In this document: in pieces, positions 8,395-59,900 of the stretch
Layout of the letters: every line of letters starts with the position of its first letter
Position numbering within the stretch: position 1 is the first letter of the stretch
Assembly: GCA_025929585.1 (NCBI GenBank)
Contig: JAICPY010000009.1
Location: 1-64,000 of the forward strand
Source of the DNA: Steroidobacter sp.
GTDB lineage: Bacteria > Pseudomonadota > Gammaproteobacteria > Steroidobacterales > Steroidobacteraceae
DNA: 64,000 nucleotides
Reading direction: 5' to 3'
Notes under the pieces: model-generated
Databases searched by the model: none
Seen by the model: the letters and a program-made list of their open reading frames with translations, nothing else
Told to the model about the DNA's origin: nothing
Position numbers and translations under genes: made by a program

Positions 8395-8423
8395 GGTGGA
8401 TGAGGTGGATGAAGTGATGAAGT
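8390..8423. repeat. Tandem GGTGGATGA words starting at the hydrolase stop codon
   Basis: The hydrolase stop TGA is followed in tandem by GGTGGATGA, GGTGGATGA and AGTGATGA. Each unit repeats a TGA in the direction of the gene. The same class recurs near 41081. Confidence 0.7.
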
Positions 8424-8458
8424 GTATTGACAGCAGATAAGGTTGATCTCGCATTTTG

Positions 8459-8492
8459 CCCGTCACCCGTCACCCGTCACCCGTCACCCGTC
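8459..8492. repeat. Tandem CCCGTCA word array
   Basis: Four to five head-to-tail copies of CCCGTCA, the reverse complement of the TGACGGG word that builds the element at 50239-50369. It ends nine bases before the A-run of the minus-strand terminator. Confidence 0.7.
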
Positions 8493-13657: not shown

Positions 13658-13689
13658 AAGCGGTTAGCGGTTGGCGGTTAGCGGTTAGG
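13658..13689. repeat. GCGGTTAGC word array between ABC ATPase and permease
   Basis: Four tandem copies of GCGGTTAGC or GCGGTTGGC followed by GGCAGAGCG. It is the same word class as at 476-502. No mirrored arm is seen. Confidence 0.65.
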
Positions 13690-44317: not shown

Positions 44318-45880
44318 ATGCGCACGTCGTTGCTCCGCGTCAGCGTTGTCCTTGTCACAGCGACGCTGTCTGCGACAGCGACAGCGCAGGACACGCGCAT
44401 TGCGCAGCTGACGATTCGTGCCGATCAGCCGAAGAGCACCATCAATCCTCACATCTATGGACACTTCGCGGAGCATCTCGGCCGGCTCATCTATGACGGC
44501 ATCTGGGTGGGAGAAGACTCCGCGATTCCGAATACCCGCGGTATCCGCAACGATGTGCTCGCCGCGCTGAAGCATCTGAAGGTGCCGGTACTTCGCTGGC
44601 CTGGCGGCTGCTTCGCAGATGAGTACCACTGGCGCGACGGTATCGGAGCTCGAGAGAGCCGACCGAAAAGGGTCAATGCAAGCTGGGGAGGCGTCGACAC
44701 TAACGCGTTCGGCACGCACGAGTTCATGGATCTCGTGGAGCTGCTGGGCGCAGATGCGTACATCAACGTAAACGTCGGTACTGGCACGACTCAAGAGATG
44801 ATGGACTGGATCGAGTACATGACCTCGGATTCGCAGTCCACGCTCGCCGACTTGCGGCGGCAGCACGGCCGAGACAAGCCTTGGAAGGTGACGTATATCG
44901 GCATCGGCAACGAGATGTGGGGCTGTGGCGGCAACATGCGGCCCGAAAACTATGTCGATGAGTACCGCAAGTTCGCAACCTTCGTGAAGGATCACGCGAG
45001 CGAAACCAAGCTACAGAGGATTGCTTCCGGTCCGCACGATGATCGCTACGATTGGAGCGAAGCGCTGATGGGGCAGGCCACCAAGCACATGGAAGGCATG
45101 TCTTTGCACTTCTATACCTTGCCTACCAGCGACTGGAAGGTGAAGGGCTCTGCGACGCAGTTCGGCCAAGACCAATGGCACTCGACGCTCGAGCGCACAT
45201 TGCGTATGGACGATTATCTCAGCAAGCACTCCGCGATCATGGACAAGCATGACCCGGATAAGAAGATTGGGTTGATGGTCGCTGAATGGGGCACGTGGTA
45301 CGACGCCGAACCGGGCAAGGATCAAGGCGCGCTGTACCAGCAGAGCACGGTACGCGATGCTGTCGTCGCAGGCATCAATCTGAATCTATTCAACATCCAT
45401 AGCGATCGCGTGCGCATGGCCAACATCGCGCAAGTCGTAAACGTATTGCAGGCGGTGATATTGACCGATCAGGAGAAGATGCTGCTCACGCCGACCTATC
45501 ACGTATTCGACATGTATAAGGTTCATCAAGGCGCGACGTCGATTCCAGTGGAGCTCGATGCACCGGCGTATCGATTCGGGTCAGCATCCGTGCCTTCGCT
45601 GAATGCGTCGGCGTCCAAGGATGCGAATGGCGTGCTGCACGTGTCGCTGGTCAACTTGGATCCTAATCGGGCCGCTGAGCTCACCATCAATCTTCAAGGG
45701 ACCAAAGCGACGCGTGTGACTGGACAGGTACTCACTGGAAGCGCGATGAACTCCATGAACACGTTCGAACAACCAAACACGGTTCGCCCGACTGAGTTCA
45801 GGTCGATCCGACGTAGTGGCCAAAGGATCGTGGTCGAGTTGCCGTCGAAGTCGGTCGTGATGTTGGAGCTCACGCCTTGA
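44318..45880 (+). CDS. Exported GH51 alpha-L-arabinofuranosidase
   Basis: Removes arabinose side chains from arabinoxylan or arabinan. From the ATG at 44318 it has 520 residues with a signal peptide MRTSLLRVSVVLVTATLSAT then ATAQ. A GTG at 44270 with AAAGG upstream gives a 16-residue longer N-terminus and may be the true start. GH51 signatures: INPHIYGHFAEHLGRLIYDGIWVG, VLRWPGGCFADEYHW, the acid/base Glu199 in IGIGNEMWGCGG, HFYTLP and the nucleophile Glu323 in MVAEWGTWYD. The C-terminal beta-sandwich ends with SKSVVMLEL. Its stop overlaps the GH105 start (TTGA). Confidence 0.93.
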   Translation: MRTSLLRVSVVLVTATLSATATAQDTRIAQLTIRADQPKSTINPHIYGHFAEHLGRLIYDGIWVGEDSAIPNTRGIRNDVLAALKHLKVPVLRWPGGCFADEYHWRDGIGARESRPKRVNASWGGVDTNAFGTHEFMDLVELLGADAYINVNVGTGTTQEMMDWIEYMTSDSQSTLADLRRQHGRDKPWKVTYIGIGNEMWGCGGNMRPENYVDEYRKFATFVKDHASETKLQRIASGPHDDRYDWSEALMGQATKHMEGMSLHFYTLPTSDWKVKGSATQFGQDQWHSTLERTLRMDDYLSKHSAIMDKHDPDKKIGLMVAEWGTWYDAEPGKDQGALYQQSTVRDAVVAGINLNLFNIHSDRVRMANIAQVVNVLQAVILTDQEKMLLTPTYHVFDMYKVHQGATSIPVELDAPAYRFGSASVPSLNASASKDANGVLHVSLVNLDPNRAAELTINLQGTKATRVTGQVLTGSAMNSMNTFEQPNTVRPTEFRSIRRSGQRIVVELPSKSVVMLELTP

Positions 45881-46998
45881 AGGAACTCACGAAACGATAC
45901 GCAGCGGTAGGATGGGTGAGTCTCATCGCCGTGTGTTCGAGCGCGTTAGCTGAATCGCACCAGTACTTCGAGCGTTGGCCGGCCGGCGCCTCGCCTACAG
46001 AAGTGGGTCGCAAGGTCACTGAACGGTTTTTGAGTTCTCGCGAGCACATGCTGTGGACCGACTACGGCACCTTGCACTATGCCGAGGTCGCAACTTGGTA
46101 CGGGGCATTGACGTATTCACAGCTCGCGAAGGCGTCCGAGAATACACAGCGGCTCGTCGCTCGGTTCGAGCCGTTGTTCTCGACGAAGGAATCGCTCGTT
46201 CCGCCGATTAATCACGTCGATCACAGCGTCTTCGGCGCGCTGCCGTTGGAGATTTACATCCAAACGGCCAATGCTAGTCACCGCACACTCGGGCTCGCCT
46301 TTGCCGACGGCCAGTGGGATCGACCCGATCGCAGCGGTCTCACGAATCAGACGCGATTTTGGATCGATGACATGTACATGATCACGCTGCTGCAAGCGCA
46401 AGCGTTCCGTGCAACAGCCGATCTGAAATACATCGATCGAACCGCGAACGAGATGATTGCCTATCTAGATCGTCTGCAGCAGCCCAATGGCTTGTTCTTT
46501 CATGCGCCGGATGCACCGTTCTATTGGGGGCGCGGCAATGGCTGGATGGCCGCCGGCATGACCGAGTTGCTGCGCTCGCTACCTCAGTCTCATGTTCATA
46601 GGCCGAGGATTCTGGCTGCCTACCGCCAAATGATGACGACGCTTCTGAAATACCAAAGCGACAGCGGAATGTGGCGCCAGCTCATCGATCGTCCGGCAGC
46701 TTGGCTCGAGAGCTCATCGACAGGCATGTTTGCGTTTGCATTCATAACTGGTGTCCAAGAAGGGTGGCTCGATTCTTCGATCTACGGTCCAGCGGCGCGC
46801 AAAGCGTGGCTTGCCCTTGTGCAGCAGATCGATGCGAAGGGCGATGTTCGCGAGGTATGCGTCGGGACCGGAACGAAGAACGATTTGCAGTATTATCTGG
46901 ACCGTCCTCGCGCCGTGGGCGATTTCCATGGCCAGGCGCCTGTGCTGTGGAGCGCATCCGCATTGCTACGTGAAGATGGGTTGACGGTCGACCGTTGA
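45877..46998 (+). CDS. Exported GH105 unsaturated glucuronyl/rhamnogalacturonyl hydrolase
   Basis: Family 88/105-type alpha/alpha-barrel hydrolase of 373 residues that releases unsaturated uronic acids from lyase products. The TTG start overlaps the GH51 stop and has GGAG eight bases upstream. A signal peptide is visible (VGWVSLIAVCSSALA). Family blocks are FWIDDMYMITLLQAQAFRATAD with the catalytic-type Asp, LFFHAPDAPFYWGRGNGWMAAGMTELLRSLP, SGMWRQLID and the closing GTGTKNDLQYYLDRP with GDFHGQAPVLW. It points to pectin or glucuronoxylan side chains in addition to xylan. Its last codons (GLTVDR) are encoded by the word repeat that begins at 46981. Confidence 0.9.
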   Translation: MKELTKRYAAVGWVSLIAVCSSALAESHQYFERWPAGASPTEVGRKVTERFLSSREHMLWTDYGTLHYAEVATWYGALTYSQLAKASENTQRLVARFEPLFSTKESLVPPINHVDHSVFGALPLEIYIQTANASHRTLGLAFADGQWDRPDRSGLTNQTRFWIDDMYMITLLQAQAFRATADLKYIDRTANEMIAYLDRLQQPNGLFFHAPDAPFYWGRGNGWMAAGMTELLRSLPQSHVHRPRILAAYRQMMTTLLKYQSDSGMWRQLIDRPAAWLESSSTGMFAFAFITGVQEGWLDSSIYGPAARKAWLALVQQIDAKGDVREVCVGTGTKNDLQYYLDRPRAVGDFHGQAPVLWSASALLREDGLTVDR

Positions 46999-47178
46999 CA
47001 GTTGACGGCCAGAGAAGAGCAAGGTCGCCGGTTAGCGGCCAGACAAAAAGAAACGTTGACGGTGGACCGTGGCAGTTGACGGCAAGCGCAAAAACATCGA
47101 CCGTTCGCATCTGGAATAGATCTGCCACGGCTTAGCCGACATCCGGCTGTCAACCGTCAACTGTCAACCCTCAACGGC
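46981..47178. repeat. Mirrored word-repeat element (GTTGACAGTTGACGG class)
   Basis: Left words: TTGACGGTCGACCGTTGACA, GTTGACGGCCAGAG and GTTGACGGTGGACCGTGGC. The right arm near 47150-47178 reads GGCTGTCAACCGTCAACTG and TCAACCCTCAACGG. A GCCGGTTAGCGGCCAGAC word sits inside. The GH105 stop codon TGA is one of the repeated TTGA units. Confidence 0.75.
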
Positions 47179-47191
47179 CGAAGGCCTCCTT

Positions 47192-48283
47192 ATGCACGAT
47201 GAACAACGACGAAGGTTTCTTATGCAAACTGCAATGATCGCCGCGGCAGCGCCTCTTGCCGGGGCGGGCGCGCTTGCGCAAACACCGAAGAAAAAACTCG
47301 GCGTTGCCTTGTGTGGCCTCGGCGGGTTGAGCACGAATCAGATCGCTCCGGCGCTCCAGAAAACGCGGCACTGCGAGCTCGTAGGCGTCGTATCCTCAGA
47401 TCGCCAGAAATCGAAACAGTGGCAGACGAAGTACAACATTCCCGATCGCAACGTGTACACGTACGACACGATCGAGAAAATGATCGACAACCCAGACATC
47501 GACATCGTGTATGTCGTCACTCCGAACGCTTTGCATTTGGATCACTCGGTTGCGGCGGCGAAAGCGGGCAAGCATGTCTTTTGCGAAAAGCCGATGGAGA
47601 TTACCGTCGAGCGCTGCCAAAAGATGATCGACGCGTGCAAGAAAGCCGATCGCTTGCTGGGCGTCGCCTACCGTTGCCAAACTGAACCCCATCATCTCGA
47701 ATGCATCCGCATCGCCCGAGAGAAGGAGCTGGGGAACATCAAGATGATCGAAGGCGGATTCGGTATTTCCGTCGGAGACCCGAACCAATGGCGCTTGAAG
47801 CACTCGCTATCCGGCGGCGGTGCGCTCATGGATGTCGGCATCTATCTCTTGCAAGCAACGCGCTATATCACCGGCGAAGAGCCGGTTATGGTCACCGCAC
47901 TCGAGAGCAAGACCGATGCCAAGAAGTTTGCCGAGGTTGACGAAACCATGACATGGACGTCGACCTTTCCAAGCGGCGTGGTCGCCTATTGTGGTGCGAG
48001 CTTCAACACTGCGCTCATGAGCCGATTCAACGTGCAGACCGATCGCGGCTCGTTCGGGATGGAGCCGGCATTTAATTATGGTGGCTTGAAGGGTCATCGA
48101 AGCGACGGCAAGCCGCTTGATTTCCCGCAGGTCGATCAATTCGCGACCGAGCTCGACGACTTCGCGCGATGCATTCTGGAGAACAAGCCTACGAGAGTCT
48201 CCGGCGAAGAAGGCATGCAGGATGTGAAGATCCTGACCGCGATCTATGAATCTGCACGCACCGGCAAGGCGGTGAAGATATAG
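47192..48283 (+). CDS. Tat-exported Gfo/Idh/MocA oxidoreductase (glucose-fructose oxidoreductase type)
   Basis: NAD(P)-dependent sugar oxidoreductase of 363 residues. The N-terminus RRRFLMQTAMIAAAAPLAGA followed by GALAQ is a twin-arginine signal, so the folded enzyme with its cofactor acts in the periplasm. The Rossmann motif is ALCGLGGLSTNQIAPAL; CEKPM supplies the catalytic-type Lys and GGGALMDVGIYLLQ the Asp and Tyr, the same pattern as Zymomonas glucose-fructose oxidoreductase. It lies 193 bases after GH105, across a word-repeat element, and before the DUF1080 gene. This neighbourhood suggests oxidation of a sugar or glycoside to its 3-keto form (inference). Confidence 0.9.
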   Translation: MHDEQRRRFLMQTAMIAAAAPLAGAGALAQTPKKKLGVALCGLGGLSTNQIAPALQKTRHCELVGVVSSDRQKSKQWQTKYNIPDRNVYTYDTIEKMIDNPDIDIVYVVTPNALHLDHSVAAAKAGKHVFCEKPMEITVERCQKMIDACKKADRLLGVAYRCQTEPHHLECIRIAREKELGNIKMIEGGFGISVGDPNQWRLKHSLSGGGALMDVGIYLLQATRYITGEEPVMVTALESKTDAKKFAEVDETMTWTSTFPSGVVAYCGASFNTALMSRFNVQTDRGSFGMEPAFNYGGLKGHRSDGKPLDFPQVDQFATELDDFARCILENKPTRVSGEEGMQDVKILTAIYESARTGKAVKI

Positions 48284-48370
48284 CGATTCGTGATTCGTGA
48301 CTAGCGGGTAGTCGGAGGAAGGCAGCCTCTTCGTTTTCTTCTTACTACCCGCGACGCGCTAGTCACGATC
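48284..48370. repeat. Mirrored word-repeat element (GTGATTCGTGACTAGCGGGTAG class)
   Basis: Left arm CGATTCGTGATTCGTGACTA then GCGGGTAGTCGGAGG. The right arm reads CTACCCGCGACGCGCTAGTC then ACGATC. The arm begins on the base after the oxidoreductase stop TAG. Confidence 0.78.
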
Positions 48371-48590
48371 CTGAGGTTTCGCAAAAACTCGTCGGAATCC
48401 TTCCGCTGGGCTCAGGGCGAACTGAAACAGCAGGAATTTCCGCGTTATTCGCCGCTCCAAATTTTCTGGCGAACGTCGGGTCACGTCCCGCTCTGCTTTA
48501 CGCCGCACAGGCGACGAGCCGTCCCAACTCTGGCATTCTCGTTGCTACGTTGTGGTTCTGTGACGAATGTAAAAAGGTTTTAAAGCGCGC
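48284..48590. other. Gap between the oxidoreductase and the DUF1080 gene
   Basis: The first 87 bases are the mirrored element. The remaining 220 bases show no gene and no clear promoter or terminator. Confidence 0.45.
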
Positions 48591-49475
48591 ATGAGACAAC
48601 TTCTCTTCATTTCTTGCTTAGTCGTTCCGATGGCTGCCTCCGCCGAGCCGGCAAAGTCCACCGAAGGTGGATGGATTAATCTGCTCGACAAGGATTTCAG
48701 CCAGTGGGACGTCTATTTGAGCTATCCCGGCGATGTGATCATGAGCGTCATTCAAAAGACGGCGCCCAAAGGTCTGAAGCCGATCGGCCTGAACAAGGAC
48801 ACGAAGAAAGTATTCTCGATGATCGAGGAGAATGGTCAGCCAATCCTGAAGATCACGGGCGAGATCTACGGTGCGGCAGCGACCAAGCAGGAGTTTGCGA
48901 ACTATCACTTCAAAGCCAAATTCAAATGGGGCGAGAAGAAGTGGGAGCCGCGGCTTGCTGAGCTCAAGGATTCCGGCATTCTCTATCACAGCGTCGGAGA
49001 ATTCGGCGTCGACTACTGGCATTCATGGATGGAGGCGCAAGAGCTCCAGATCATCGAAGGGGGCATCGGTGATTACTGGACCATCGCCGGCGCGCAGATA
49101 GACATTCGAGCGCACAAGCGGTCCGGATCGGAGCTCTACGAATATTCTGCCGAAGCACCTCTCTTGCACTTCGCGGCCGATCCTGCGAACAACGAGGCCG
49201 TTGCGAATCATTGCCGACGAGGCGAGGACCGCGAAATCCCGAATGCGTGGAACGAAGTCGAGCTCCTTTGTTATGGAGCCGACTGCCTGCACATCGCGAA
49301 CGGCGGGGTCGTAATGGCGTTACAAAATTCTCGCCATCCCAAAGACGGCAAGCTAGTCGACCTGGAACGCGGAAAAATCCAGATCCAAAGCGAAGCCGCG
49401 GAAGTGTTCTATAAAGATGTGATGATCCGCAGCATCGATGCGATGCCTGCGAAATACCGCAGGTATTTCGAGTGA
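48591..49475 (+). CDS. Exported DUF1080 protein (3-keto-glycoside hydrolase/lyase type)
   Basis: Periplasmic beta-sandwich protein of 294 residues. Signal peptide MRQLLFISCLVVPMAASA then EPAK. The DUF1080 domain (PF06439) shows GWINLLDKDFSQWDVYL, FANYHFKAKFKWGEKKW, DSGILYHSVGE, MEAQELQIIEGGIGDYW, WNEVELLCYGADCLHIANGGVVM and KIQIQSEAAEVFYKDVMIR. Members of this family have been named 3-keto-disaccharide hydrolases and act after a Gfo/Idh/MocA dehydrogenase on 3-keto-glycosides. The neighbouring oxidoreductase fits this. The specific substrate is unknown. The stop codon TGA is the first of four tandem GTGACGA words. Confidence 0.88.
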   Translation: MRQLLFISCLVVPMAASAEPAKSTEGGWINLLDKDFSQWDVYLSYPGDVIMSVIQKTAPKGLKPIGLNKDTKKVFSMIEENGQPILKITGEIYGAAATKQEFANYHFKAKFKWGEKKWEPRLAELKDSGILYHSVGEFGVDYWHSWMEAQELQIIEGGIGDYWTIAGAQIDIRAHKRSGSELYEYSAEAPLLHFAADPANNEAVANHCRRGEDREIPNAWNEVELLCYGADCLHIANGGVVMALQNSRHPKDGKLVDLERGKIQIQSEAAEVFYKDVMIRSIDAMPAKYRRYFE

Positions 49476-49554
49476 CGAAGTGACGAGGTGACGGAGTGAC
49501 GACGTCAGAGCGGACTCCTCTTGCTTACCTTCCGACTTCGTTACCCTGTCACTC
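49472..49554. repeat. Mirrored word-repeat element (GTGACGAAGTGACGAGG class)
   Basis: Left arm GTGACGAAGTGACGAGGTGA then CGGAGTGACGACGTCAGAG. Right arm CGACTTCGTTACCCTGTCAC. The first GTGAC contains the DUF1080 stop. It has the TCAGAG core next to the spacer. Confidence 0.78.
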
Positions 49555-49580
49555 GATTTTCGCCGCTCGCGGCGAAAATC
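49555..49580. repeat. Perfect 12-bp hairpin
   Basis: GATTTTCGCCGC (49555-49566) and GCGGCGAAAATC (49569-49580) with a two-base loop, directly after the mirrored element and 64 bases before the next start. No T-run follows. Confidence 0.6.
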
Positions 49581-49643
49581 GCCCTATCGTGGAACTTCCT
49601 ACCTCTCTCACAGGTATTCGTGTACCTAATAGAGAGTTCTTAC

Positions 49644-50231
49644 ATGAAAATCTGGCTGGCGGTAGTGACCCTGGTTTGGTGCGGCGGTGCGCATGCGTTC
49701 GAGTGGCGCGCCCTGGAATGGCGGGTCGGAGTGGCTTATGCCACCGGACTGAGCGATGTCACCGACCTTCACGAAGAAAATCTGCGCGCGAGCGGCCTGG
49801 AAGCGGACGTCGACCTGAAAGTGCCTTTGGGAATCGCCGGCGGTGTGACCTACGACTGGACGTCTGGCATGCGTGTCGACGTCACGCTGGGACCGACGTT
49901 TTTCATCGGTGGCGATGTCAGCCACTCGGAGCTGCCGCTCGCGGCGACCATCGGCTACAACTTCGCGCGGGACGCGGATATTTCACCTTTTATACGTGCG
50001 GGCGTCGTTCACCACTTCGCCAGTGGTGACTACGAGACCGGTTCTAATCCAGGCTTGCTGGTCGCTGCCGGCTTGGATTTCCAGCGCCTCACGATCGAGG
50101 TCGCGATGGACAACTCGGAGATCGAGTTCGAATCCGTGCAGTGCGACGCAGCGGGCGCGAATTGCACACCGGCCGTGCGAACACTCAATACTTATGATGT
50201 GTTGGCGAGTGTGTATTGGCGCTTCAGATAA
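49644..50231 (+). CDS. Putative outer-membrane beta-barrel protein
   Basis: Exported protein of 195 residues. Signal peptide MKIWLAVVTLVWCGGAHA. The mature chain is made of alternating beta strands with aromatic caps (WRVGVAYATGL, GIAGGVTYDWTSGMRVDVTLGPTFFIGG, LPLAATIGYNFA, GLLVAAGLDFQRLTIEVAMD) and ends in DVLASVYWRFR; the terminal Phe-Arg resembles the C-terminal aromatic signature of outer-membrane barrels, although Arg is last. About eight strands are likely, as in OmpW/OmpA-type barrels. Two cysteines (VQCDAAGANC) lie in a loop. I chose the ATG at 49644, which starts the signal peptide, with AGAGAG upstream. Function unknown. Confidence 0.72.
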   Translation: MKIWLAVVTLVWCGGAHAFEWRALEWRVGVAYATGLSDVTDLHEENLRASGLEADVDLKVPLGIAGGVTYDWTSGMRVDVTLGPTFFIGGDVSHSELPLAATIGYNFARDADISPFIRAGVVHHFASGDYETGSNPGLLVAAGLDFQRLTIEVAMDNSEIEFESVQCDAAGANCTPAVRTLNTYDVLASVYWRFR

Positions 50232-50238
50232 GAGCCGA

Positions 50239-50369
50239 AGTGACGGGTGGCGGGTGACGGGCAAGAATAGATATGAGGAGCTAAGCGGCTCACGGACGCT
50301 CGCATAACAAAGCGTGTACGCGTCGCGGTTGCTTCTTGCTCGTCACCCGTCACCCGTCACCTCGTCACT
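50239..50369. repeat. Mirrored word-repeat element (GTGACGGGTGACGGG class)
   Basis: Left arm AAGTGACGGGTGGCGGGTGA then CGGGCAAGAATAG. Right arm GCTCGTCACCCGTCACCCGT then CACCTCGTCACT. Both arms end at the spacer in a GGCAAGAA / CGAGCAAGAAG type core. It starts seven bases after the barrel-protein stop. Confidence 0.78.
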
Positions 50370-50460
50370 GCGCCGCAGGCGCACAGCGCGGAACTTCCCC
50401 CATCCTCTGTAGTTTTACCTCCGACGCGCGCTGAAGCGCGTGATCGTCATCGGGGAAGCT

Positions 50461-51399
50461 ATGTCAGTGCGCAGTCATCACCTGCTCGCAGTGCTCGCGC
50501 TTGCGGGACTGATGAGTGCCTGTTCGAATGGTCGCGGCAGTGTCGCTGAAGTGCCAGCCGGAAACTCGCCTCCGCCATCGACGCCAACACCAACGCCTGA
50601 GCCACCTCCAACGCCTGAGCCCGCAGAGCCGCCTCCCGAACCAACTCCACCGCCAGAGCCGCCGCCTCCGGCACCACCACCACCCGAACCTGAACCCGAG
50701 CCTGAAGGCACACCGCTCGCGGGCTTTTGGAAGGGTCGGGTAGTCGATCAACGATCCGGCAACGAACGCGAGGGCGTTGCGCTCGTCGATCTATCTGGCG
50801 AGTGGCAGTTGTTGGTGCTCGAGGACGACGAGGAGCCGCAATTCGTCTTGCATGGCAACCTGTGCTGCGAATCGCGAATCAATGGTGAGGTCCGAGGGCG
50901 TCGGTACCTGGACATGCGCGAATCCGATGCGAGAATCGAAGTGGATGCCTCTGCTGGTTCACTGCGCGGCACATTCGAGTTCCGAGGACGCGAGTACGAC
51001 TTCGATCTCGCGCCTGACGATGCCTACGCACAGCCCCTGACTCTGGAATCACTTGCTGGCGTCTACACGCGAGCGACGAATCCAAGTTTCGATCCTGCTT
51101 CGACGCTCACTTTGACTATCGATGCGAATGGAGCGCTCAGCGGCTCTCATTCGAACGGTTGCGTTTTCAGCGGCTCGGTATCGATTCCCAATTCGTCGCG
51201 CAACATGATCCAGGTGAATGTGGATCTCGCCGATTGCGGCGGCAGGCAAAGCTCGCGTCGCTGGAATGGCGGCTACGAAGGACTGGGCATTCTGCTGCGT
51301 GACTCCGTCTCTCCCACAGACGGCTCAACTCGCGAAGATATTTTCTATCATAGCGTCGTGGGTCCGACGTGGTTAGGGCCGATGGATGTTGGGCGCTGA
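50461..51399 (+). CDS. Lipoprotein with Pro/Glu-rich linker, unknown family
   Basis: Lipoprotein of 312 residues. Signal ends LAGLMSAC. A long linker (about 35-85) consists of Pro, Glu and Thr (PTPEPPPTPEPAEPPPEP and onward) and would extend the protein away from the membrane. The folded part (about 88-312) has two beta-rich sections: GFWKGRVVDQRSGNEREGVALVDLSGEWQLLVL, and later LAGVYTRATNPSFDPASTLTLTIDANGALSGSHSNGCVFSGSV, which looks like an internal repeat of a lipocalin-like or calycin-like strand pattern. I do not recognise a named domain. The stop lies three bases before a word-repeat element. Confidence 0.75.
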   Translation: MSVRSHHLLAVLALAGLMSACSNGRGSVAEVPAGNSPPPSTPTPTPEPPPTPEPAEPPPEPTPPPEPPPPAPPPPEPEPEPEGTPLAGFWKGRVVDQRSGNEREGVALVDLSGEWQLLVLEDDEEPQFVLHGNLCCESRINGEVRGRRYLDMRESDARIEVDASAGSLRGTFEFRGREYDFDLAPDDAYAQPLTLESLAGVYTRATNPSFDPASTLTLTIDANGALSGSHSNGCVFSGSVSIPNSSRNMIQVNVDLADCGGRQSSRRWNGGYEGLGILLRDSVSPTDGSTREDIFYHSVVGPTWLGPMDVGR

Positions 51400-51401
51400 T
51401 G

Positions 51402-51484
51402 CGCGTGTAAGGTGTAGTGTGTAGTGTGTAGGGTCAGAGTTAGGGAGTCTTGCACACGTCTACACCTCTACACGTTCACACGTC
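51402..51484. repeat. Mirrored word-repeat element (GTGTAAGGTGTAGTG class)
   Basis: Left arm GCGTGTAAGGTGTAGTGTGT then AGTGTGTAGGGTCAGAG. The right arm reads CACACGTCTACACCTCTACA then CGTTCACACGTC. It fills the gap between the convergent lipoprotein and ElaA genes and supplies the ElaA stop codon. Confidence 0.8.
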
Positions 51485-51932
51485 TTCGCACCATCTCCAC
51501 ATGCGGAATCCCATCCTCGAGATAGATATCTGAGTCCGTCCTGAAGCCGAACTCGGCATAAAAGTTCTGCAGGTGCGCCTGAGCACCGATCCGCGAGACC
51601 TGATGCGGATATAGCACTTCCAAATGTTCTACTCCGCGCCGCATCAGCTCTCGGCCCAGACCTGTGCGTCGATATTCAAGTGCAGTCAACACGCGGCCGA
51701 TCGAAGGCTCGGCAAACTTCACGCTCGGTGGAACGATTCGCAAATACGCCGCGACACGCTGTTCATTCCAGGCAATCAAATGCATGGATTGCGCATCCGT
51801 GCCATCCATATCCTGATACGCACAATTCTGCTCGACGACGAAGACAGCTGATCGTATGGCCAGAATCGCATAGAGCTGCGATGGCGTGAGTGAATCGAAG
51901 GAGGAAAGATGCCAGGTGAGCGGGGCGTTCAT
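51468..51932 (-). CDS. elaA: GNAT family acetyltransferase, ElaA-like
   Basis: Cytoplasmic acetyltransferase of 154 residues. The N-terminal block LYAILAIRSAVFVVEQNCAYQDMDGTDAQSMHLIAW is the hallmark of the ElaA group; the acetyl-CoA loop is seen in RVLTALEYRRTGLGRELM. AHLQNFYAEFGF and YLEDGIPHVEM are typical of the end. Substrate unknown. The last codons (VNV and the stop) are written in the ACACG word array: on the minus strand GTGAACGTGTAG. This shows the word repeat has entered or created the coding end. Confidence 0.88.
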   Translation of the reverse strand: MNAPLTWHLSSFDSLTPSQLYAILAIRSAVFVVEQNCAYQDMDGTDAQSMHLIAWNEQRVAAYLRIVPPSVKFAEPSIGRVLTALEYRRTGLGRELMRRGVEHLEVLYPHQVSRIGAQAHLQNFYAEFGFRTDSDIYLEDGIPHVEMVRRRVNV

Positions 51933-51958
51933 GCGTAAAGCTTGCAGTCACGGTGAGG

Positions 51959-52085
51959 GAGTCCACAGTCCGTGGTCCGCAGTCTGTAGCCGGAATCATC
52001 GGAGTGCTGTCGCGGCCAGTAACTGTGCATCAGCTAATGGGCTGTCGTTCCGGCCTGCGGACCAGGGGCTGTAGACTACAGACTG
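51959..52085. repeat. Mirrored word-repeat element (GTCCGCAGTCTGTAGCC class)
   Basis: Left arm GTCCACAGTCCGTGGTCCGC then AGTCTGTAGCCGGAATC. The right arm reads CGTTCCGGCCTGCGGACCAG then GGGCTGTAGACTACAGACTG. Both arms have GCCGGAA next to the spacer. It lies downstream of DUF4159 and upstream of elaA. Confidence 0.72.
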
Positions 52086-52109
52086 ATCGCCGCTGTCGCG
52101 GCGATCAGT
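52082..52109. repeat. Perfect 12-bp hairpin over the DUF4159 stop codon
   Basis: ACTGATCGCCGC (52082-52093) and GCGGCGATCAGT (52098-52109) with loop TGTC. The stop codon of the DUF4159 gene is inside the right arm. No T-run follows on either strand. Confidence 0.65.
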
Positions 52110-52887
52110 GCGTCATCGCATACAGAATGTAATTGATCGCGTACTGATACGCTCGCGTCGTGTACTGCAGGGCGTATTCGGGAACATCGGCGTGTTCCCA
52201 GGCATCGCCGAGGTCCATGTTGAAGTTGATCATGACCATCAAGCGGCCCTCGTCATCATAGATGCCGCGCCAGTGTGGCTCGAAGCCATCGCGTTCATAC
52301 GGCACGCCGCTGTAGACGAATTGGATACCCGGAATCTGAGTGCGCTCGTTGAGATCGTATGCGACATGAAAGATGGGGTCGTCGGTGGGGACATCTACGA
52401 TCGTTCGATCCGGGAATACCCGACGCATGACTTCGACGAAGCCAGCCCACTCAAGGCTGCCGTGAAAGTCATCGACCATGAGAAAGCCGCCGCGCAAAAG
52501 ATAATCGCGCAAGCGTGCGGCTTCCATTTCGCTCAGAGACCATCCGCCGACTTCGACCGCATACAGCCAGGGATAGTCGAAAAGGCGGTCATCCATGATC
52601 TTGAGATAGGTTCCGTCCTGGGCAGTATCGATGCGCGTCAGGCGCCTGACGCCACTGAGTAGATAGCGCTCGGCGTCAGGCCAATCCGTAAGCCACCGCT
52701 CGCTACCGCCGAAGCCGAATTGCAAACCGCTGCTCGTGTACGCGAGGCGCACGAATTGAAATTCGGCATTGCCGGGAGCAGGCGATGCCATTTCCGGCTG
52801 CGAGCTGCTATCGGCGCTCAACGCTGCGCCGAGCAGTGCGAGCGCTGCGACGAGACGTGCTCCGCGACTTGCAAGGGTGAGGATCAT
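52105..52887 (-). CDS. Exported DUF4159 domain protein
   Basis: Protein of 260 residues with a signal peptide (ARLVAALALLGAALSA). The DUF4159 region fills the rest: FQFVRLAYTSSG, DWPDAERYLLSGVRRLTRID, FDYPWLYAVEVGGWSLSEMEAARLRDYLLRGGFLMVDDFHG, IPGIQFVYSGVPYERDGFEPHWRGIYDDEGRLMVMINFNMDLGDAWEHAD and the C-terminal YQYAINYILYAMTH. These are conserved blocks of the family, often met in gliding- or surface-related loci of other phyla, but the function is not established. The N-terminus may be followed by a short Ser/Pro linker. It is divergent from the DUF3750 gene. Confidence 0.85.
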   Translation of the reverse strand: MILTLASRGARLVAALALLGAALSADSSSQPEMASPAPGNAEFQFVRLAYTSSGLQFGFGGSERWLTDWPDAERYLLSGVRRLTRIDTAQDGTYLKIMDDRLFDYPWLYAVEVGGWSLSEMEAARLRDYLLRGGFLMVDDFHGSLEWAGFVEVMRRVFPDRTIVDVPTDDPIFHVAYDLNERTQIPGIQFVYSGVPYERDGFEPHWRGIYDDEGRLMVMINFNMDLGDAWEHADVPEYALQYTTRAYQYAINYILYAMTH

Positions 52888-52918
52888 AGGTCGATAGGGT
52901 GAGGGTAGTGACGTCGGC

Positions 52919-53076
52919 GCTAGTGACTCGCGGGTAGTCGAAGAAGTGACTCGTGATTCGTGACTCGCGGGTAGAAAGACCAGGATCCTTGTTCGCGCCT
53001 AAGCTGCCACGCCGACCCTCTACCTCCTAGTACCCGCGAATCACGAATCACGACCCGCTTCCTGCTGCGACCCGCT
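52919..53076. repeat. Mirrored word-repeat element between divergent genes (GTGATTCGTGACTCGCGGGTAG class)
   Basis: Left arm TAGTGACTCGCGGGTAGTCG, then GTGACTCGTGATTCGTGACT and CGCGGGTAGAAAGACCAGG. The right arm reads TACCCGCGAATCACGAATCA then CGACCCGC. It is the only element seen between two divergent starts rather than behind a stop codon. Confidence 0.75.
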
Positions 53077-53133
53077 TGTGCTTCCGAGCTTACCAGTTGG
53101 CTTGAACGAGACACATCCGGCATATTTCTGACC

Positions 53134-53946
53134 ATGCTCAAAAAGGCGAAGACTTCAGTACTGTGGTTTGCGGCTTACTTGCTGCTGGCATCGAGCTATC
53201 TGGGCTTCTCGGACCAGCTTTCCGCTCGCGATTGGCGTACGGCCTCGCGAGAGCCCGCGGGCTTGGCGCCCGATCCGGCCGCGACACGGGAGGCAGTCGT
53301 TCAGGTTTACGCTGCGCGTGCGGTCGGTTGGCGCGGCTACTTTGGCGTTCACACTTGGATTGCTGCGAAGCCCTCCGGTGCCGAGAGTTTCACGGTCTAC
53401 GAGGTGATCGGCTATCGATTGCGCCGCACCGGCACTTCCGTCGTTGTCCATCAACGAGCACCCGATGGCTTTTGGTTTGGCAACCGTCCGGAGCTACTGA
53501 GCGATGTGCGCGGCACGGGCGTCGATGAGGTCATCCACAGGATCGAGGCGGCAGTGCAAACGTATCCTTACGCGACTCGATATCGGGTCTGGCCAGGCCC
53601 CAATTCCAACACGTTCACCGCTTATGTGTTACGGGCAGCCCCGGAGCTGCGGGTCGACCTACCGCCCACGGCGATCGGCAAAGATTATTTTGGCGGCCTG
53701 CCCGTCGATCGAACTCCGAGTGGCACAGGGTTCCAATTGAACCTGCTGGGCGCCGTCGGCGTGCTCGGCGGGATCGAGGAGGGCATTGAAGTAAATTTCT
53801 TGGGCCTGACGCTCGGCGTCGATCCACGAAACTTTGCATTGAAGTTGCCACTGATCGGAAGTCTCGGCCTCAGCGGGAAAGTCGAGCCGATGAGATTAGG
53901 GGGTAATGATCAGGGGGTAGGGGGTAGTCAGAGCCAGGATCCTTGA
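53134..53946 (+). CDS. DUF3750 domain protein
   Basis: Protein of 270 residues with an N-terminal membrane or signal segment (VLWFAAYLLLASSYLGF). DUF3750 blocks: GWRGYFGVHTWIAAKP, YEVIGYRLRR, DGFWFGNRPELLSDVRG, YPYATRYRVWPGPNSNTFTAYVLRAAPELRVDLPPTAIGKDY. These are characteristic; the WPGPNSNTF motif is nearly invariant and the fold is thought enzyme-like, but no activity is known to me. The last 18 residues (MRLGGNDQGVGGSQSQDP) are translated from the word repeat at 53898, so the natural C-terminus was probably near KVEP and has been extended. Confidence 0.85.
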   Translation: MLKKAKTSVLWFAAYLLLASSYLGFSDQLSARDWRTASREPAGLAPDPAATREAVVQVYAARAVGWRGYFGVHTWIAAKPSGAESFTVYEVIGYRLRRTGTSVVVHQRAPDGFWFGNRPELLSDVRGTGVDEVIHRIEAAVQTYPYATRYRVWPGPNSNTFTAYVLRAAPELRVDLPPTAIGKDYFGGLPVDRTPSGTGFQLNLLGAVGVLGGIEEGIEVNFLGLTLGVDPRNFALKLPLIGSLGLSGKVEPMRLGGNDQGVGGSQSQDP

Positions 53947-54044
53947 TTGCTGAGGGCTAGCAGTGTCAACTCACGAGCGCTCGCTCGGCCGCGGCTAGCG
54001 CGAAAGTTCCTTCTGACTATTCCCTACCCCCTGATCATTACCCG
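53898..54044. repeat. Mirrored word-repeat element with near-perfect 33-bp arms (GGGGGTAGGGGGTAG class)
   Basis: Left arm GGGGGTAATGATCAGGGGGT then AGGGGGTAGTCAGAG. The right arm reads TTCTGACTATTCCCTACCCC then CTGATCATTACCC. The left arm overlaps the 3' end of the DUF3750 gene. The arms include the TCAGA core. Confidence 0.82.
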
Positions 54045-54116
54045 CTCTCCTGCTACTCTTCGCCCTGGCAAAAATCCGCGCGACCCCTTCGCGCGACATA
54101 ACAACGAGGGATACGC

Positions 54117-55430
54117 GTGGAAATATTCTGGGTCCTGGCGTCGATCGTCCTGCTTGTTCTGCTCATCAGTTGGGGAAAGGTCCACCCGTTCATTGCCTTT
54201 CTCCTCACCTCGATCTTCGCTGGATACGTGCTCGGGCTGCCGCTCGATAAAATTCCGGGCTCGATCGAAAAAGGCTTGGGCAGCATGCTCGGGTCGCTGG
54301 TTGCGATCATTTGCTTGGGCGCGATGTTCGGAAAGCTGATCGCACAGAGCGGAGCTGCACAGAAGATCGCCGCGGTCTTGATGGGGATGTTCGGCGAGAA
54401 GCGGATCACATGGGCCCTGATGCTCACTGGATTCATCGTGGGCATCCCATTGTTCTACAACGTTGGCTTCGTGTTGCTCGTGCCGCTGATCTTCTCGGTC
54501 GTGTACTACTCGAAGTTGCCGGCCGTCTATCTAGGCGTGCCGTTGCTGGCATCGCTCTCCGTGACGCATGGATTCTTGCCGCCTCATCCGGCGCCGACTG
54601 CAATGGTGCCGATGTTCAACGCGAGCATGAGTACGACGCTGATCTACGGAATGTTCGTGGCCGTGCCGGCGATGATCATCGCAGGTCCGGTCTTCGCTCG
54701 TTTTTTTCGCAACTCTCAGTCCAAGTTACCCGAGCTGTTCACGCCGCAGGATATGCCTGTCGATCAGCTGCCGGGCACATTCAACTGCTTCGCGACCGCG
54801 CTGTTGCCGGTCGTGATGATCGCGGGCTCCGCGGCTTTGCCCGGCATGGCTCAAGAAGGCACGCTGCTGTACAGCGTGCTGAAGTTCGTCAGCGATCCGT
54901 TCATCGTGATGCTGATCGCATTGCTCGTCGCGACGTTCACGCTCGGTATTTCCCGAGGTATGCGAATTGAGCCTTTGATGGAGCACTACAGTGGCGCAGT
55001 CAAAGATATCGCCGTGATCCTGCTGATCATTGCCGGCGCCGGTGCGCTCAAGCAGATCTTCGTCGACACGGGCGTGAGCGATGCAATTTCCGATGCGCTA
55101 CAAGGGCTGTCGATCAATCCGCTGTTGCTCGGCTGGATCATCGCAACCGTCATTCGCGTCTGCTTGGGCTCGGCTACCGTCGCAGGTTTGACGGCCGCAG
55201 GGATCATGGCTCCCGTAGTTGCCTCCAGCGGGGTCGATCCAAACCTGATGGTGCTCGCAATCGGAGCCGGCAGCTTGATGCTCTCGCACGTCAACGACTC
55301 CGGCTTCTGGATGTTCAAGGAATATTTCAATCTCAGCTTGAAAGAAACCTTGATGTCTTGGACGCTGATGGAAGGAATTGTTGGCGTCGTGGGGATAATT
55401 GGCGTATTGATTATGGATGCAGTTTTGTAG
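54117..55430 (+). CDS. GntP family gluconate/organic acid:H+ symporter
   Basis: Inner-membrane symporter of 437 residues with 12-14 membrane segments. Family signatures: VHPFIAFLLTSIFAGYVLGLPLDKIPGSIEKGLGSMLGSLVAI, FIVGIPLFYNVGFVLLVPLIF, SLSVTHGFLPPHPAPTAM (the conserved HGFxPPHP motif) and the C-terminal GAGSLMLSHVNDSGFWMFKEYFNLS, also invariant in GntP proteins. The GTG start at 54117 has GAGGG six bases upstream. Gluconate is the usual substrate; fructuronate or other sugar acids are possible and would suit the nearby uronate-releasing enzymes. No kinase gene is adjacent. Confidence 0.92.
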   Translation: MEIFWVLASIVLLVLLISWGKVHPFIAFLLTSIFAGYVLGLPLDKIPGSIEKGLGSMLGSLVAIICLGAMFGKLIAQSGAAQKIAAVLMGMFGEKRITWALMLTGFIVGIPLFYNVGFVLLVPLIFSVVYYSKLPAVYLGVPLLASLSVTHGFLPPHPAPTAMVPMFNASMSTTLIYGMFVAVPAMIIAGPVFARFFRNSQSKLPELFTPQDMPVDQLPGTFNCFATALLPVVMIAGSAALPGMAQEGTLLYSVLKFVSDPFIVMLIALLVATFTLGISRGMRIEPLMEHYSGAVKDIAVILLIIAGAGALKQIFVDTGVSDAISDALQGLSINPLLLGWIIATVIRVCLGSATVAGLTAAGIMAPVVASSGVDPNLMVLAIGAGSLMLSHVNDSGFWMFKEYFNLSLKETLMSWTLMEGIVGVVGIIGVLIMDAVL

Positions 55431-55434
55431 AGGG

Positions 55435-55577
55435 AGAGGTGTAAAGGTGTAGGCGTGTGGACGTGTAAGGTCCGAGGGCGCTGCTTTGTTAGCAGGTGTG
55501 AGAATGTAGGTGTGTAGAGTCAGAGTAGGCGTTCGCCTTCTGTTCTGAACTTTACACGCCTACACCTCTACACGCCT
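55435..55577. repeat. Mirrored word-repeat element (GTGTAGGCGTGTGG class)
   Basis: Left words GAGAGGTGTAAAGGTGTAGG, CGTGTGGACGTGTAAGG, then GTAGGTGTGTAGAGTCAGAG. The right arm, CTTTACACGCCTACACCTCT then ACACGCC, is preceded by TTCTGA, the inverted TCAGAA core. It starts four bases after the GntP stop. Confidence 0.8.
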
Positions 55578-55591
55578 TCCACCGAATCGAG

Positions 55592-55846
55592 CTAGGCTCG
55601 ATTCTTCCTCACTATCGCTCCCAAGATCAGCAGGAACGCGACTAGCCTTACGACGTAGATCGCGGCGCCGGCTTCGTTCGGTGTCTCGACGAACAAGAAA
55701 CCGATACGGTTGAGGCCTTCGATGAAGAAGGCGGTCGCGAACGCGAGGAACAGCGAGTCTTTGGTCTGCTTCCAGAACTTGAAAAAATACGCCGCGGCGG
55801 TGAGAGATGCCGTGACGATGATGCCCAGAAAAAATCCTTCGATCAT
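55592..55846 (-). CDS. DUF5985 family small membrane protein, second copy
   Basis: Small inner-membrane protein of 84 residues with three hydrophobic segments (about 3-20, 33-52, 64-80; MIEGFFLGIIVTASLTAAAYFF, LFLAFATAFFIEGLNRIGFLF, VVRLVAFLLILGAIV). The pattern FFLxFWKxTxDxLFxxFAxAF is that of DUF5985. It lies six bases after a related 86-residue protein, and such genes often come in pairs. Function unknown. Confidence 0.75.
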   Translation of the reverse strand: MIEGFFLGIIVTASLTAAAYFFKFWKQTKDSLFLAFATAFFIEGLNRIGFLFVETPNEAGAAIYVVRLVAFLLILGAIVRKNRA

Positions 55847-55852
55847 GGTCGG

Positions 55853-56113
55853 TTACTCGCTTTCGAAGACCAGGCCATAGAGGAGCAAAAGCATCGCAGC
55901 GGCGGCCGTCCCCAAACGCGCCATGTACAAGTCGACCGAAGCTGGCAGCAAGATCAGATCAATACACAGCACTGCGTTGGAGATCGTGAGTCCGACGAAA
56001 CACAGGCCGCTCCATAGCAAGAGTTTCTTCCTTACGTTGCCGTACGCTCGCAGCAGCAAGATCGCGCAGAGCAACGTAACGATGGTACCGAGCAGGTATA
56101 CGAGCGATGCCAT
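55853..56113 (-). CDS. DUF5985 family small membrane protein, first copy
   Basis: Small inner-membrane protein of 86 residues; start ATG at 56113, giving MASLVYLLGTIVTLLCAILLLRAY. Three hydrophobic segments and the LLLWSGLCFVGLTISNAVLCIDLILLP region match DUF5985. The longer frame upstream reads through the winged-helix gene. It lies two bases after that gene's stop and six before the second copy, so the three genes form one operon. Confidence 0.75.
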   Translation of the reverse strand: MASLVYLLGTIVTLLCAILLLRAYGNVRKKLLLWSGLCFVGLTISNAVLCIDLILLPASVDLYMARLGTAAAAMLLLLYGLVFESE

Positions 56114-56945: not shown

Positions 56946-59900
56946 ATGGAAACTCAAGAACGCGTCGCTCGCCGAACGGCGCGCAAGCTGACTAGCAAGG
57001 CGGGCGGAGACGATTCGGATCTCGATTTGCGCAAGCTCCTGCGGGCTTTGCAAGCGGTGCGCGATGGCGACTTCTCCGTCCGGCTGCCAAGTGACAAGAC
57101 TGGCATCGCCGGCAAAGTGGCAGACACCTTCAACGAGATTGTGGCATCCAGTCAGCGCATGGCCCGCGAGATCGAGCGCGCAGGCCAAATGGTCGGCAAA
57201 GAAGGCAAAACGCGTCACCGAGTTTCAGTCGATCGCAGATCCGGTTCCTGGGGAGCGATGGAAGGCTCGATCAACACTCTCATCGACGATCTATTGTGGC
57301 CGACAGCCGAGGTGACTCGCACGATCAGCGCGGTTGCGAAAGGCGATCTTTCTCAGCGCATGCAGATGGAGGTCGACGGCCGTCCTTTGAAAGGCGAGTT
57401 TCAGCGCTCCGCCACAATCGTCAATTCGATGATCGAGCAGATGAGTGCGTTCACCTCCGAAGTGACTCGCGTCGCGCGTGAGGTCGGAACGGAAGGCAAG
57501 CTCGGCGGACAAGCAGTCGTGCCGGGCGCTGCCGGAACCTGGAAAGACTTGACCGATAACGTCAACTCGATGGCCGGCAACTTGACTGGGCAAGTGCGCA
57601 ACATCGCAGAGGTCGCAACCGCCATCGCAAACGGCGACTTGTCTCGCAAGATCACGGTGGAGGTCCTAAGGGAGAGGCGACATCTCAGAGTGGCAGTCAC
57701 CTGGATGGTGGATCAGTTGCGCTCGTTTGCCTCTGAAGTGACGCGCGTGGCGCGCGAGGTCGGATCGGAAGGCAAGCTAGGCGGACAGGCAGTCGTGCCA
57801 GGTGTTGCGGGCACTTGGAAAGACTTGACCGATAACGTCAACGCCATGGCGACCAACCTGACGAGTCAGGTTCGCAACATCGCGGAAGTGACCACGGCGG
57901 TCGCACGCGGCGACTTGTCTCGCAAGATCACGGTGGACGTGAAGGGCGAGATCCTCGAGCTCAAACAAACCATCAACACGATGGTGGACCAATTGAACGG
58001 CTTCGCTGCCGAAGTGACGCGCGTCGCGCGCGAAGTCGGCACCGAAGGCAAGCTCGGCGGTCAGGCCGAAGTAAAAGACGTGAGCGGCGTGTGGAAGGAT
58101 CTCACCGATAACGTCAACTCCATGGCGAGCAACCTCACCGGTCAGGTGCGAAACATTTCGGAAGTCACCATCGCGGTCGCAAACGGCGATCTATCTCGCA
58201 AGATCACGGTCGACGTTCGCGGTGAAATCCTGCAGCTGAAGGAAGCTATTAATACGATGGTGGATCAGCTGCGCTCGTTCGCATCGGAGGTGACGCGCGT
58301 TGCGCGTGAGGTTGGAACGGAAGGAAAACTGGGTGGCCAGGCAATCGTTCCGGGTGTCGCGGGAACCTGGAAGGATCTCACCGACTCGGTGAACGCGATG
58401 GCGACGAACCTGACAGGACAGGTGCGCAACATCGCCGAAGTGACCACGGCAGTGGCGCGCGGTGACTTGTCGCGCAAGATCACGGTAGACGTGAAGGGCG
58501 AGATTCTCGAGCTGAAGGAAACCATCAATACGATGGTGGATCAGCTGCGCTCGTTCGCATCGGAGGTGACGCGTGTCGCCCGCGAGGTCGGATCCGAAGG
58601 CAAGCTCGGCGGCCAGGCAAACGTGCCCGGCGCAGCCGGCACTTGGAAGGATCTCACCGATAACGTGAATTCGATGGCGAACAATCTCACCGATCAGGTG
58701 CGAAACATTGCCGAGGTCTCCACAGCCATCGCGCGCGGCGACTTGTCGCGCAAGATCACGGTGGATGTGAAGGGCGAGATTCTGCAACTCAAAGAAGCCA
58801 TCAACACGATGGTGGATCAGTTGAACGCATTCGCCGCCGAAGTGACTCGCGTGGCGCGCGAGGTTGGTACCGAAGGCAAGCTCGGCGGACAGGCCAACGT
58901 GCCGGGCGCGGCAGGTACTTGGAAGGATCTGACCGACAACGTGAACTCGATGGCGAACAATCTCACCGATCAGGTGCGAAACATCGCCGAAGTCTCGACC
59001 GCAATCGCGCGCGGCGACTTGTCGCGCAAGATCACGGTGGACGTCAAAGGCGAGATTCTGCAACTCAAAGAAGCCATCAATACGATGGTGGACCAGTTGA
59101 ACGCGTTTGCAGCCGAAGTGACTCGCGTGGCGCGCGAAGTCGGTACTGAAGGCAAGCTCGGCGGTCAAGCAGAAGTGAAAGGCGTGAGCGGTGTGTGGAA
59201 AGACCTCACCGATAACGTCAACTCGATGGCCAGCAACCTGACCAACCAGGTCCGCAATATCGCTGACGTCGCCACTGCGATTGCCAACGGCGACTTATCT
59301 AGAAAGATCACGGTGGACGTGCGCGGTGAGATTCGGCAGTTGAAAGAAACCATCAATACGATGGTGGACCAGCTGAATGCATTCGCGGCTGAGGTGACGC
59401 GCGTGGCGCGCGAAGTAGGTACCGAAGGCAAGCTCGGTGGTCAAGCCGACGTGCGAGATATGAGCGGTGTGTGGAAGAACCTCACCGATAACGTGAACTC
59501 GATGGCGAGTAACTTGACAGGTCAGGTGCGCAACATCGCGGAAGTCGCCACGGCGATCGCGAAAGGCGACTTGTCACGCAAGATCACGGTAGACGTACGC
59601 GGCGAAATTCTGCAGCTCAAAGAAACCATCAATACGATGGTCGACCAGCTCAACAGCTTCGCCGCTGAAGTAACGCGCGTCGCTCGTGAGGTCGGCACCG
59701 AAGGCAAGCTCGGCGGCCAAGCAATCGTGCCTGGCGTCGCTGGTACGTGGAAAGATCTCACCGACAACGTCAACTCGATGGCGAGCAACTTGACCGGTCA
59801 GGTTCGTAACATCGCGGAAGTGTCGACGGCTATCGCGCGCGGCGACTTGTCGCGCAAGATCACGGTCGATGTGAAGGGCGAGATTTTGCAGCTGAAAGAG

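Follow-up and report, generated by a model that had tools for sequence, protein, structure and literature searches.

Inverted arrays of short, often stop-bearing words at the 3' ends of genes in a Steroidobacter genome

The closest known counterparts of the repeats described here are the GGGAATC heptamers of Xanthomonas and the REPs. According to Rehm et al. (2015; PMC4692102), G-rich heptamers of the form GGGAATC or GGGNATC occur in Xanthomonas and Nostoc as tandem, intergenic repeats, which on the sense strand lie mostly within 50 bp of a stop codon, sometimes over it, and on the antisense strand before starts. The authors give 70–75 inverted pairs per Xanthomonas genome, few of them between divergent genes, and propose G-quadruplexes for the repeats. 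As can be read from the word itself, GGGAATC contains no stop codon. REPs (GTAG and CGTC families, PMC3733652) are elements of 20–40 bp whose sequence is characteristic of the family and which bear a tetranucleotide tag; those with the tag GTAG lie under 20 bp from the 3' ends of both convergent genes, often supply a TAG stop and often occur with a RAYT transposase. Earlier work, as reported in PMC12306157, found that E. coli REPs located at most 15 nt from the stop codon stall ribosomes and lower translation and that REPs block exonucleases. Finally, the TAACTGA heptamers of Beggiatoaceae (PMC4679880) place a stop in each of the three frames in one direction, and 13 arrays overlap an upstream stop; the arrays are direct and mostly precede start codons, with only one inverted repeat reported.

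The elements analyzed here resemble the Xanthomonas heptamers in having tandem 7-base, G-rich intergenic units, some classes having units of 8–9 bases. Unlike the Xanthomonas repeats with their one main word (PMC4692102), which lacks stops, they comprise about ten classes, most of them with inward stops. The GGGANTN unit, which contains GGGAATC, fitted none of the ten word classes by eye; runs of at least three G per unit were seen by eye in the GTGACGGG, GGGGATAG and GGGGGTA arrays and were absent from GTTGACG, GTGATGA and others. With REP/BIME sequences the elements share a palindromic structure, an intergenic location just past 3' ends in convergent and tandem gaps, and inverted pairing, whereas their arms are variable tandem words of classes differing in sequence and not a single imperfect palindrome of 20–40 bp with a GTAG tag at one end. 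By eye, no GTAG or CGTC tag is common to the classes, several of which begin with GAAG, and, in contrast to GTAG REPs, no linked RAYT was found. The heptamer arrays with all-frame stops in one direction, some of them lying over the upstream stop, recall the TAACTGA repeats; unlike those direct repeats, most of which precede starts, the arms studied here are inverted and located at gene 3' ends.

Anatomy of the elements

The source draft genome comprises 5.13 Mb in 297 contigs, and the window, i.e. the whole stretch of DNA that was analyzed, corresponds to the first 64 kb of contig C54. The focal site (51402–51484) sits between convergent genes, with the left arm beginning about 3 bases past the stop of the left gene. 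Its predicted RNA fold has an energy of -36.6 kcal/mol (z -3.1), and all seven elements that were folded, out of about 17 in the window, gave a z of -3.1 or lower. The features of the window are listed in Table 1.

Table 1. Coordinates of the focal element, its neighboring genes and the other elements of the window.
Feature	Start	End	Strand	Remarks
Element	8390	8492	.	Left array GATGAAGTG; right array CCCGTCA, a different word
Element	10081	10220	.	Left arm GAGGTGCA/GTGTAGA; right arm ACGTCTAC
Element, GCGGGTCGTGATT class	24400	24577	.	
Element, GGGGATAG class	30219	30291	.	Short spacer, convergent genes on either side; fold -49.8 kcal/mol, z -6.6
Element, GTGACTC/GTGATTC class	32455	32572	.	
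Element, GTGATGAG class	41083	41242	.	
Element, GTTGACG class	46978	47177	.	Provides final codons and stop of GH88-family gene
Element, GTGATTC/GCGGGTA class	48285	48369	.	Directly past stop of GFO/IDH/MocA oxidoreductase; fold z -5.4
Element, AGTGACGA class	49471	49555	.	First word holds stop of 3-keto-disaccharide hydrolase gene; fold z -3.2
Element, GTGACGG class	50239	50369	.	Fold -80.4 kcal/mol, z -7.4
Gene left of focal element	50440	51399	+	Without Pfam match; stop TGA 51397–51399
Focal left (G-rich) arm	51403	51432	+	GTGTAAG/GTGTAGT words, inward TAA and TAG; TRF row 51412–51431
Focal inner boundary (GTCAGAG) and short spacer	51433	51453	.	Sequence
Focal right arm	51454	51485	-	Reverse complement of left words; TRF row 51454–51485
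GNAT acetyltransferase (elaA-like)	51468	51932	-	Pfam Acetyltransf_10 at residues 33–149 of 154
Element between divergent DUF4159 and DUF3750 genes	52913	53053	.	Absent in relative G013
Element, GGGGGTAATGAT class	53898	54043	.	Fold z -5.3
Element, GTGTAGA class	55426	55577	.	Between convergent genes

The earlier note on this DNA had named six places at which a repeat meets the end of a gene, and all six coordinates turned out to be correct in substance. The gene stop that it placed in the first tandem word at 8390 is the TGA 8392–8394 of the gene 7537–8394, inside the first GATGAAGTG copy; likewise, at 49472 the gene ends at position 49475 and its TGA (49473–49475) is that of the first AGTGACGA copy. 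The elaA stop at 51468 does lie within the array: both the stop and the final codons of the GNAT gene are written in the right arm, TAG being read from CTA 51468–51470. The array said to follow a stop at 48284 starts one to two bases past TAG 48281–48283. The last codons of two genes had been read as repeat sequence. At 46981 these belong to the GH88-family gene, whose TGA (46996–46998) is located inside the left arm 46978–47008; at 53898 they belong to the DUF3750 gene, which crosses the whole arm 53898–53932 in a frame different from that of the arm stops and ends at 53944–53946 in the spacer. The description of the repeats as arrays of tandem words captured a real feature but only half of the structure, since the inverted partner arm was unmentioned. 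Many arrays of the window face a second array of reverse-complement words; by eye, exceptions are 8390–8492 and 13659–13688, the latter seemingly a single arm only. No covariance model of Rfam 15 matched positions 45000–56000 of the window at gathering score.

The genome survey covered 1.547 Mb of the same genome (30%), a non-random draw composed of contigs carrying one word pattern, some continuations of long contigs and low-numbered contigs. The 1387 genes in it were taken from our own hexamer-model caller and not from a published annotation, and their starts may be off. The detector demands two inverted arms of tandem words; standalone arrays fall outside its counts. It returned 202 inverted tandem-arm clusters, as compared with about 11 expected from the 4 clusters found in 578 kb of Markov sequence. 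After removal of overlaps 193 clusters were left, of which 23 "other" clusters, 3 CGCAAAG and 9 GCAGCGGCG rows were excluded before counting and 158 were assigned to the word classes under discussion. One excluded "other" row, C46:9881, should have been classed as a lopsided GTGACG array; lying 147 bp from a 3' end, it counts against the reading preferred below. In the window the detector recovered 8 of the about 17 elements counted by eye and missed the focal one; the element counts are therefore lower bounds.

The 158 elements represent about ten word classes (GTGACG, GTTGAC, GTGATG, GGATAG, GCGGTTA, GTGTAG, GGGGGTAATGAT, GCGGGTCGTGATT, AGTCCGC and GGTCTGC). An element consists of two inverted arms of tandem 7–9 base words, an inner boundary that is often GYMAGAR-like, and a mostly private spacer, for which a second place was found in 16 of 121 cases (1.55 Mb, E below 1e-3). 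The elements are polar: in 153 of the 158 the G-rich arm is the 5' one. Compared with random segments, inner arm ends are enriched about 9- to 16-fold in GTCAG, TCAGA, CCAGA and CAGAA, and the loose inner motif matches only 159 of 316 arm ends. Within a class, 21–41% of other arms outscore an arm's own partner. Strict covariation is weak, because arms match their own partner only somewhat better than they match arms elsewhere.

Several additional structures were observed in the survey. The spacers of C24:22195, C39:6073 and C37:90474 hold a G+C-rich hairpin resembling an ordinary terminator, which is enclosed by both arms and in two of the three is flanked by a T run. A separate palindromic class, built of stop-free CGCAGCGGCG words, is present on C41, C35, C176 and C40 and, in the set examined, faced no 3' end within 50 bp. 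Palindromes of the GAAGAGGCCCC type have a C-rich 5' arm (e.g., C15:36819, C51:8969 and C118:39143), and some of their copies are located 7–46 bp from a 3' end.

Position at gene 3' ends

The proximity to stop codons held across the survey: 143 of the 167 gene 3' ends facing an element lie within 15 bp of it, the 9 of the 158 elements that sit within called genes being omitted from this count. Among these 143 close cases, 62 overlap the gene end, most commonly with distances of -5 to -7 and often by one word, and in the remaining 81 the array begins past the gene's own stop. As a control for position, the 33 intergenic 3' ends facing the excluded "other", CGCAAAG and GCAGCGGCG rows were scored with the same detector, and 4 of these ends were close (P 2e-16), with 0 of 17 in two of those classes. 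The hugging of 3' ends is therefore no product of the detector. Two other palindromes, in the relative G008, are also located near gene ends (7 and 10 bp).

Between tandem genes, 70 of the 83 elements of stop-bearing classes are nearer to the stop than to the start. Of the 25 elements in tandem gaps that leave 80 bp or more unoccupied, 24 lie in the quarter adjoining the stop, and for this reason hugging as a by-product of small gaps was rejected. An artefact of the gene caller was rejected as well, since the hugging holds for 119 of 135 strong genes and 81 elements begin after the stop. Divergent gaps are depleted, accounting for 17 of 145 elements as compared with 194 of 727 gaps longer than 80 bp, element-bearing ones included (P 7e-5). 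The 37 convergent gaps with an element are taken up by it from one stop to the other, a median of 5 bp being left; the 191 convergent gaps without a detected element have a median length of 86 bp. Part of the hugging might result if elements had been purged from promoter zones, a possibility for which the convergent gaps offered just three cases with 80 bp of slack. Overall, 144 of 719 gene 3' ends with a gap of at least 70 bp, about a fifth, possess a detected element, the detector undercounting.

The possibility that the arms frame native intergenic DNA was rejected as a general one, since tandem gaps minus arms are longer (104 vs. 53, P 3e-6); convergent gaps minus arms have a median of 48 vs. 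86 in element-free gaps, a difference that is not significant (P 0.09). Terminator-like sites predicted with a simple finder did not differ in frequency between element ends and others, either in convergent (3 of 65 vs. 12 of 223) or in tandem gaps (2 of 79 vs. 10 of 352).

These elements are probably dispersed intergenic 3'-border hairpins that act in a REP-like manner and whose inward stops are a tolerance feature that does not set their position. They occupy the 3' borders of transcription units: the G-rich arm begins a few bases past the stop codon or slightly overlaps it, and its complementary partner extends to the next stop or close to the start of the next gene. Judging from the predicted folds, a very stable RNA stem would stand directly against the stop codon, where it may come into contact with ribosomes that are terminating and close off the end of the message. 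Such a stem could, as proposed by analogy with REPs, block 3' exonucleases or prevent transcription from running on into the next gene, and terminating ribosomes might be slowed by it.

Relatives, orthologous gaps and mobility

Three genus-group relatives, G007, G008 and the syntenic G013, were compared, the G008 and G007 stretches being selected mostly for containing word matches. One GTGACG array pattern matched 438 times in the present genome, 46 times in G008 and twice in G007; the remaining 57 of 60 genomes gave no match. Within the sequence retrieved from each relative, G008 shares GTGACG, GCGGTTA and GCGGATA and adds CACGGGG, CACGGAG, GCTAGCC and GTGAGCG, G007 has several words in common and also GGGGCTTG, and in G013 two GGCTGTAGG-like arrays were seen and no member of the word classes. 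The G008 and G007 loci L135–L151, L153 and L154 are laid out in the same way, their words differing in part. Part of the word dictionary thus changes between genus-mates while the layout stays, since G008 and G007 share some words and differ in others.

Among 61 conserved adjacent gene pairs examined, six G013 gaps with orthologous flanks contained none of these arrays by eye. The DUF4159/DUF3750 gap measures 101 bp in G013 vs. 246 bp here, where it contains a 141 bp element. One tandem pair is separated by 29 bp in G013 and by an element filling the gap here; one convergent pair overlaps by 55 bp in G013 and has an element in between here, the left protein being 23 residues shorter. A G013 gap of 611 bases on C7, orthologous to that of gene 23/24 on C15, holds a different, longer repeat with GATGCGGGG-like words.

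It is possible, if rather unlikely, that the elements are selfish mobile hairpins, inserted as whole units by an unspecified transposition route, with a preference for 3' ends and subsequent purging, and of no benefit to the host. The DUF4159/DUF3750 site, empty in G013 with a length difference near that of the element, and the high and patchy copy number among the genomes are consistent with such insertions. So are five GTGACG elements (C2:28327, C41:71734, C198:6134, C198:7924 and C44:157), five pairs of which share their spacers over 33–65 bp at 75–83%, but most spacers are private and neither fixed ends nor target duplications were established. The five elements are perhaps one recently copied subfamily; in those of C2, C41 and C198:7924 the right arm is longer than the left one. 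A further point against mobility is that a search for Y1 (REP-type) transposases yielded a single gene in the genome (Y1_Tnp, L197), whose 3.3 kb locus contains no word array, which also leaves mobilization by a RAYT unsupported.

The C-termini of the adjacent genes were compared with those of their orthologs. Relative to G013, the C-terminal length differed by more than 5 residues at 6 of 14 element ends vs. 14 of 93 controls (Fisher P 0.02, rank test P 0.11), which indicates that some gene ends changed. The four genes overlapping their element end 0, 0, +7 and +12 residues from the G013 ortholog. Relative to G008, with three element ends, the DUF3750 protein is 9 residues shorter, another protein is 3 and a third 139 residues longer; two of these genes overlap their element (-9 and +3). 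Among 19 of 42 fetched loci with DUF3750 homologs, no word array was seen by eye in the 187 bases past the stop, and the tail beyond the conserved core varies.

Stop codons within the words

Inward stop triplets number 10.8 per 100 bp of arm vs. 1.2 in the outward direction; shuffling of letters gave 4.7 and shuffling of dinucleotides 5.9, and intergenic DNA as a whole has 3.4. Six of the ten classes clearly exceed their dinucleotide shuffles, AGTCCGC and GCGGTTA do so slightly, the latter with equally frequent outward stops, and GTGTAG and GGTCTGC show no excess. In consensus words hand-chosen once the finding was known, an inward stop was present in 9 of 11 vs. 4.5 expected by letter permutation (P 0.002), and a stop in 11 of 16, five of them from relatives, vs. 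4.9 expected (P 1e-4). The claim that almost every word class contains stops thus survives as an enrichment but does not extend to GGTCTGC, which has none, or to AGTCCGC, which has them only via variants.

At 161 element ends the next stop was encountered within 10 codons in 66, 71 and 67% of cases in frames 0, +1 and +2, respectively, as compared with 33, 34 and 36% at 644 control ends. Since the usual word length is 7 or 8 bases, a single stop in each word suffices to close every frame. The frequency of a next stop within 10 codons is about doubled in all frames, but the gene's own frame is not favored; the earlier note itself had named a random phase as refuting its proposal.

Words with few or no stops are found at the same place. 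Of the 13 gene 3' ends that face an AGTCCGC or GGTCTGC element, 12 are within 20 bp or overlapping, and the stop-less GGTCTGC arrays lie 7, 9, 12, 18 and 38 bp from gene ends. For the stop-less CACGGGG/CACGGAG words of G008, 12 of 14 facing ends are 4 to 27 bp away, by distances transcribed by hand and with row 71304 scored as stop-less, its sole stop being located in the flank. The words differ in how often they overlap the gene end: in the present genome, 65 of 157 ends are overlapped by stop-bearing words vs. 2 of 14 by AGTCCGC and GGTCTGC (P 0.05), AGTCCGC being pooled with the stop-less words though its variants do hold stops. In G008 the corresponding numbers are 7 of 8 vs. 2 of 14 (P 0.0015), from 25 rows of which 8 non-family or in-gene and 2 divergent ones without a 3' end were left out and C2:55638 and C5:18170 were retained although flagged as in-gene. 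Two genes, DUF3750 and gene 4 on contig C38, continue across their arms. The stops do not set the position of the elements, since the frames are equal, the stop-poor and stop-less classes take the same place and DUF3750 reads through; they look like a tolerance feature, since stop-bearing words overlap gene ends more often.

That the words are selected multi-stop cassettes, retained to end read-through or frameshifted ribosomes and doing so for both sides in convergent gaps, appears very doubtful. The excess of inward over shuffled and outward stops, the stops in the hand-picked words and the doubling in every frame agree with it, but stop-poor or stop-less words hold the same place here, in G008 and, according to PMC4692102, in Xanthomonas; moreover, two genes read through their arms, period-9 words do not cycle frames and the gene's own frame gets no preference. 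The multi-stop 3' ends of the earlier note are therefore real as sequence, with a doubtful purpose that reduces to the tolerance effect. A tandem expansion from each gene's own stop-codon region, the other origin put forward in that note, is highly improbable and refuted as a general one, because the overlap of arm and gene end in 62 of 167 cases, often by one word, is outweighed by identical multi-word strings recurring at many genes, by the 81 of 143 close elements that begin after the stop, by the inverted partner arm of the detected elements, and by the orthologous ends without the word read by eye in the six G013 gaps and the DUF3750 homologs.

With the elements read as REP-like 3'-border hairpins, a single stop in a word of 7 or 8 bases would close three frames within about 21–24 bases, and an arm landing on a gene end would cost only a few residues and keep ribosomes out of the stem. 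A stop-less arm that enters a gene lengthens the protein, and a stop-bearing arm usually ends it within a few residues, DUF3750 and the C38 gene being exceptions. In the GH88-family and GNAT proteins the Pfam match stops short of the residues encoded by the arm (in the former at position 363 of 373), which, together with the offsets of 0, 0, +7 and +12 residues at the four overlapping genes, was counted in favor of tolerance. A wider version of the same reading, which we consider unlikely, is a lineage-wide system of 3'-end hairpins whose architecture, with a G-rich arm on the stop, a GYMAGAR-like inner boundary and a complementary arm at the border of the far gene, is kept while the dictionary changes between genus-mates, stop-bearing words being favored for placing the stem on the stop and excluding ribosomes in all frames. 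If right, G-rich heptamer arrays and REP palindromes would become one kind of gene-end hairpin, which keeps its place and shape with its sequence free to change. There would also be a testable reason for stop-rich words in such arrays and a warning that repeats can encode the C-terminal residues of proteins in these genomes.

The window contains one further repeat of a different kind. Within the ORF 56946–63239 (2097 residues), which presumably resembles a multi-HAMP sensor kinase, nearly ten tandem units of 276 bases were observed at 57421–60125.
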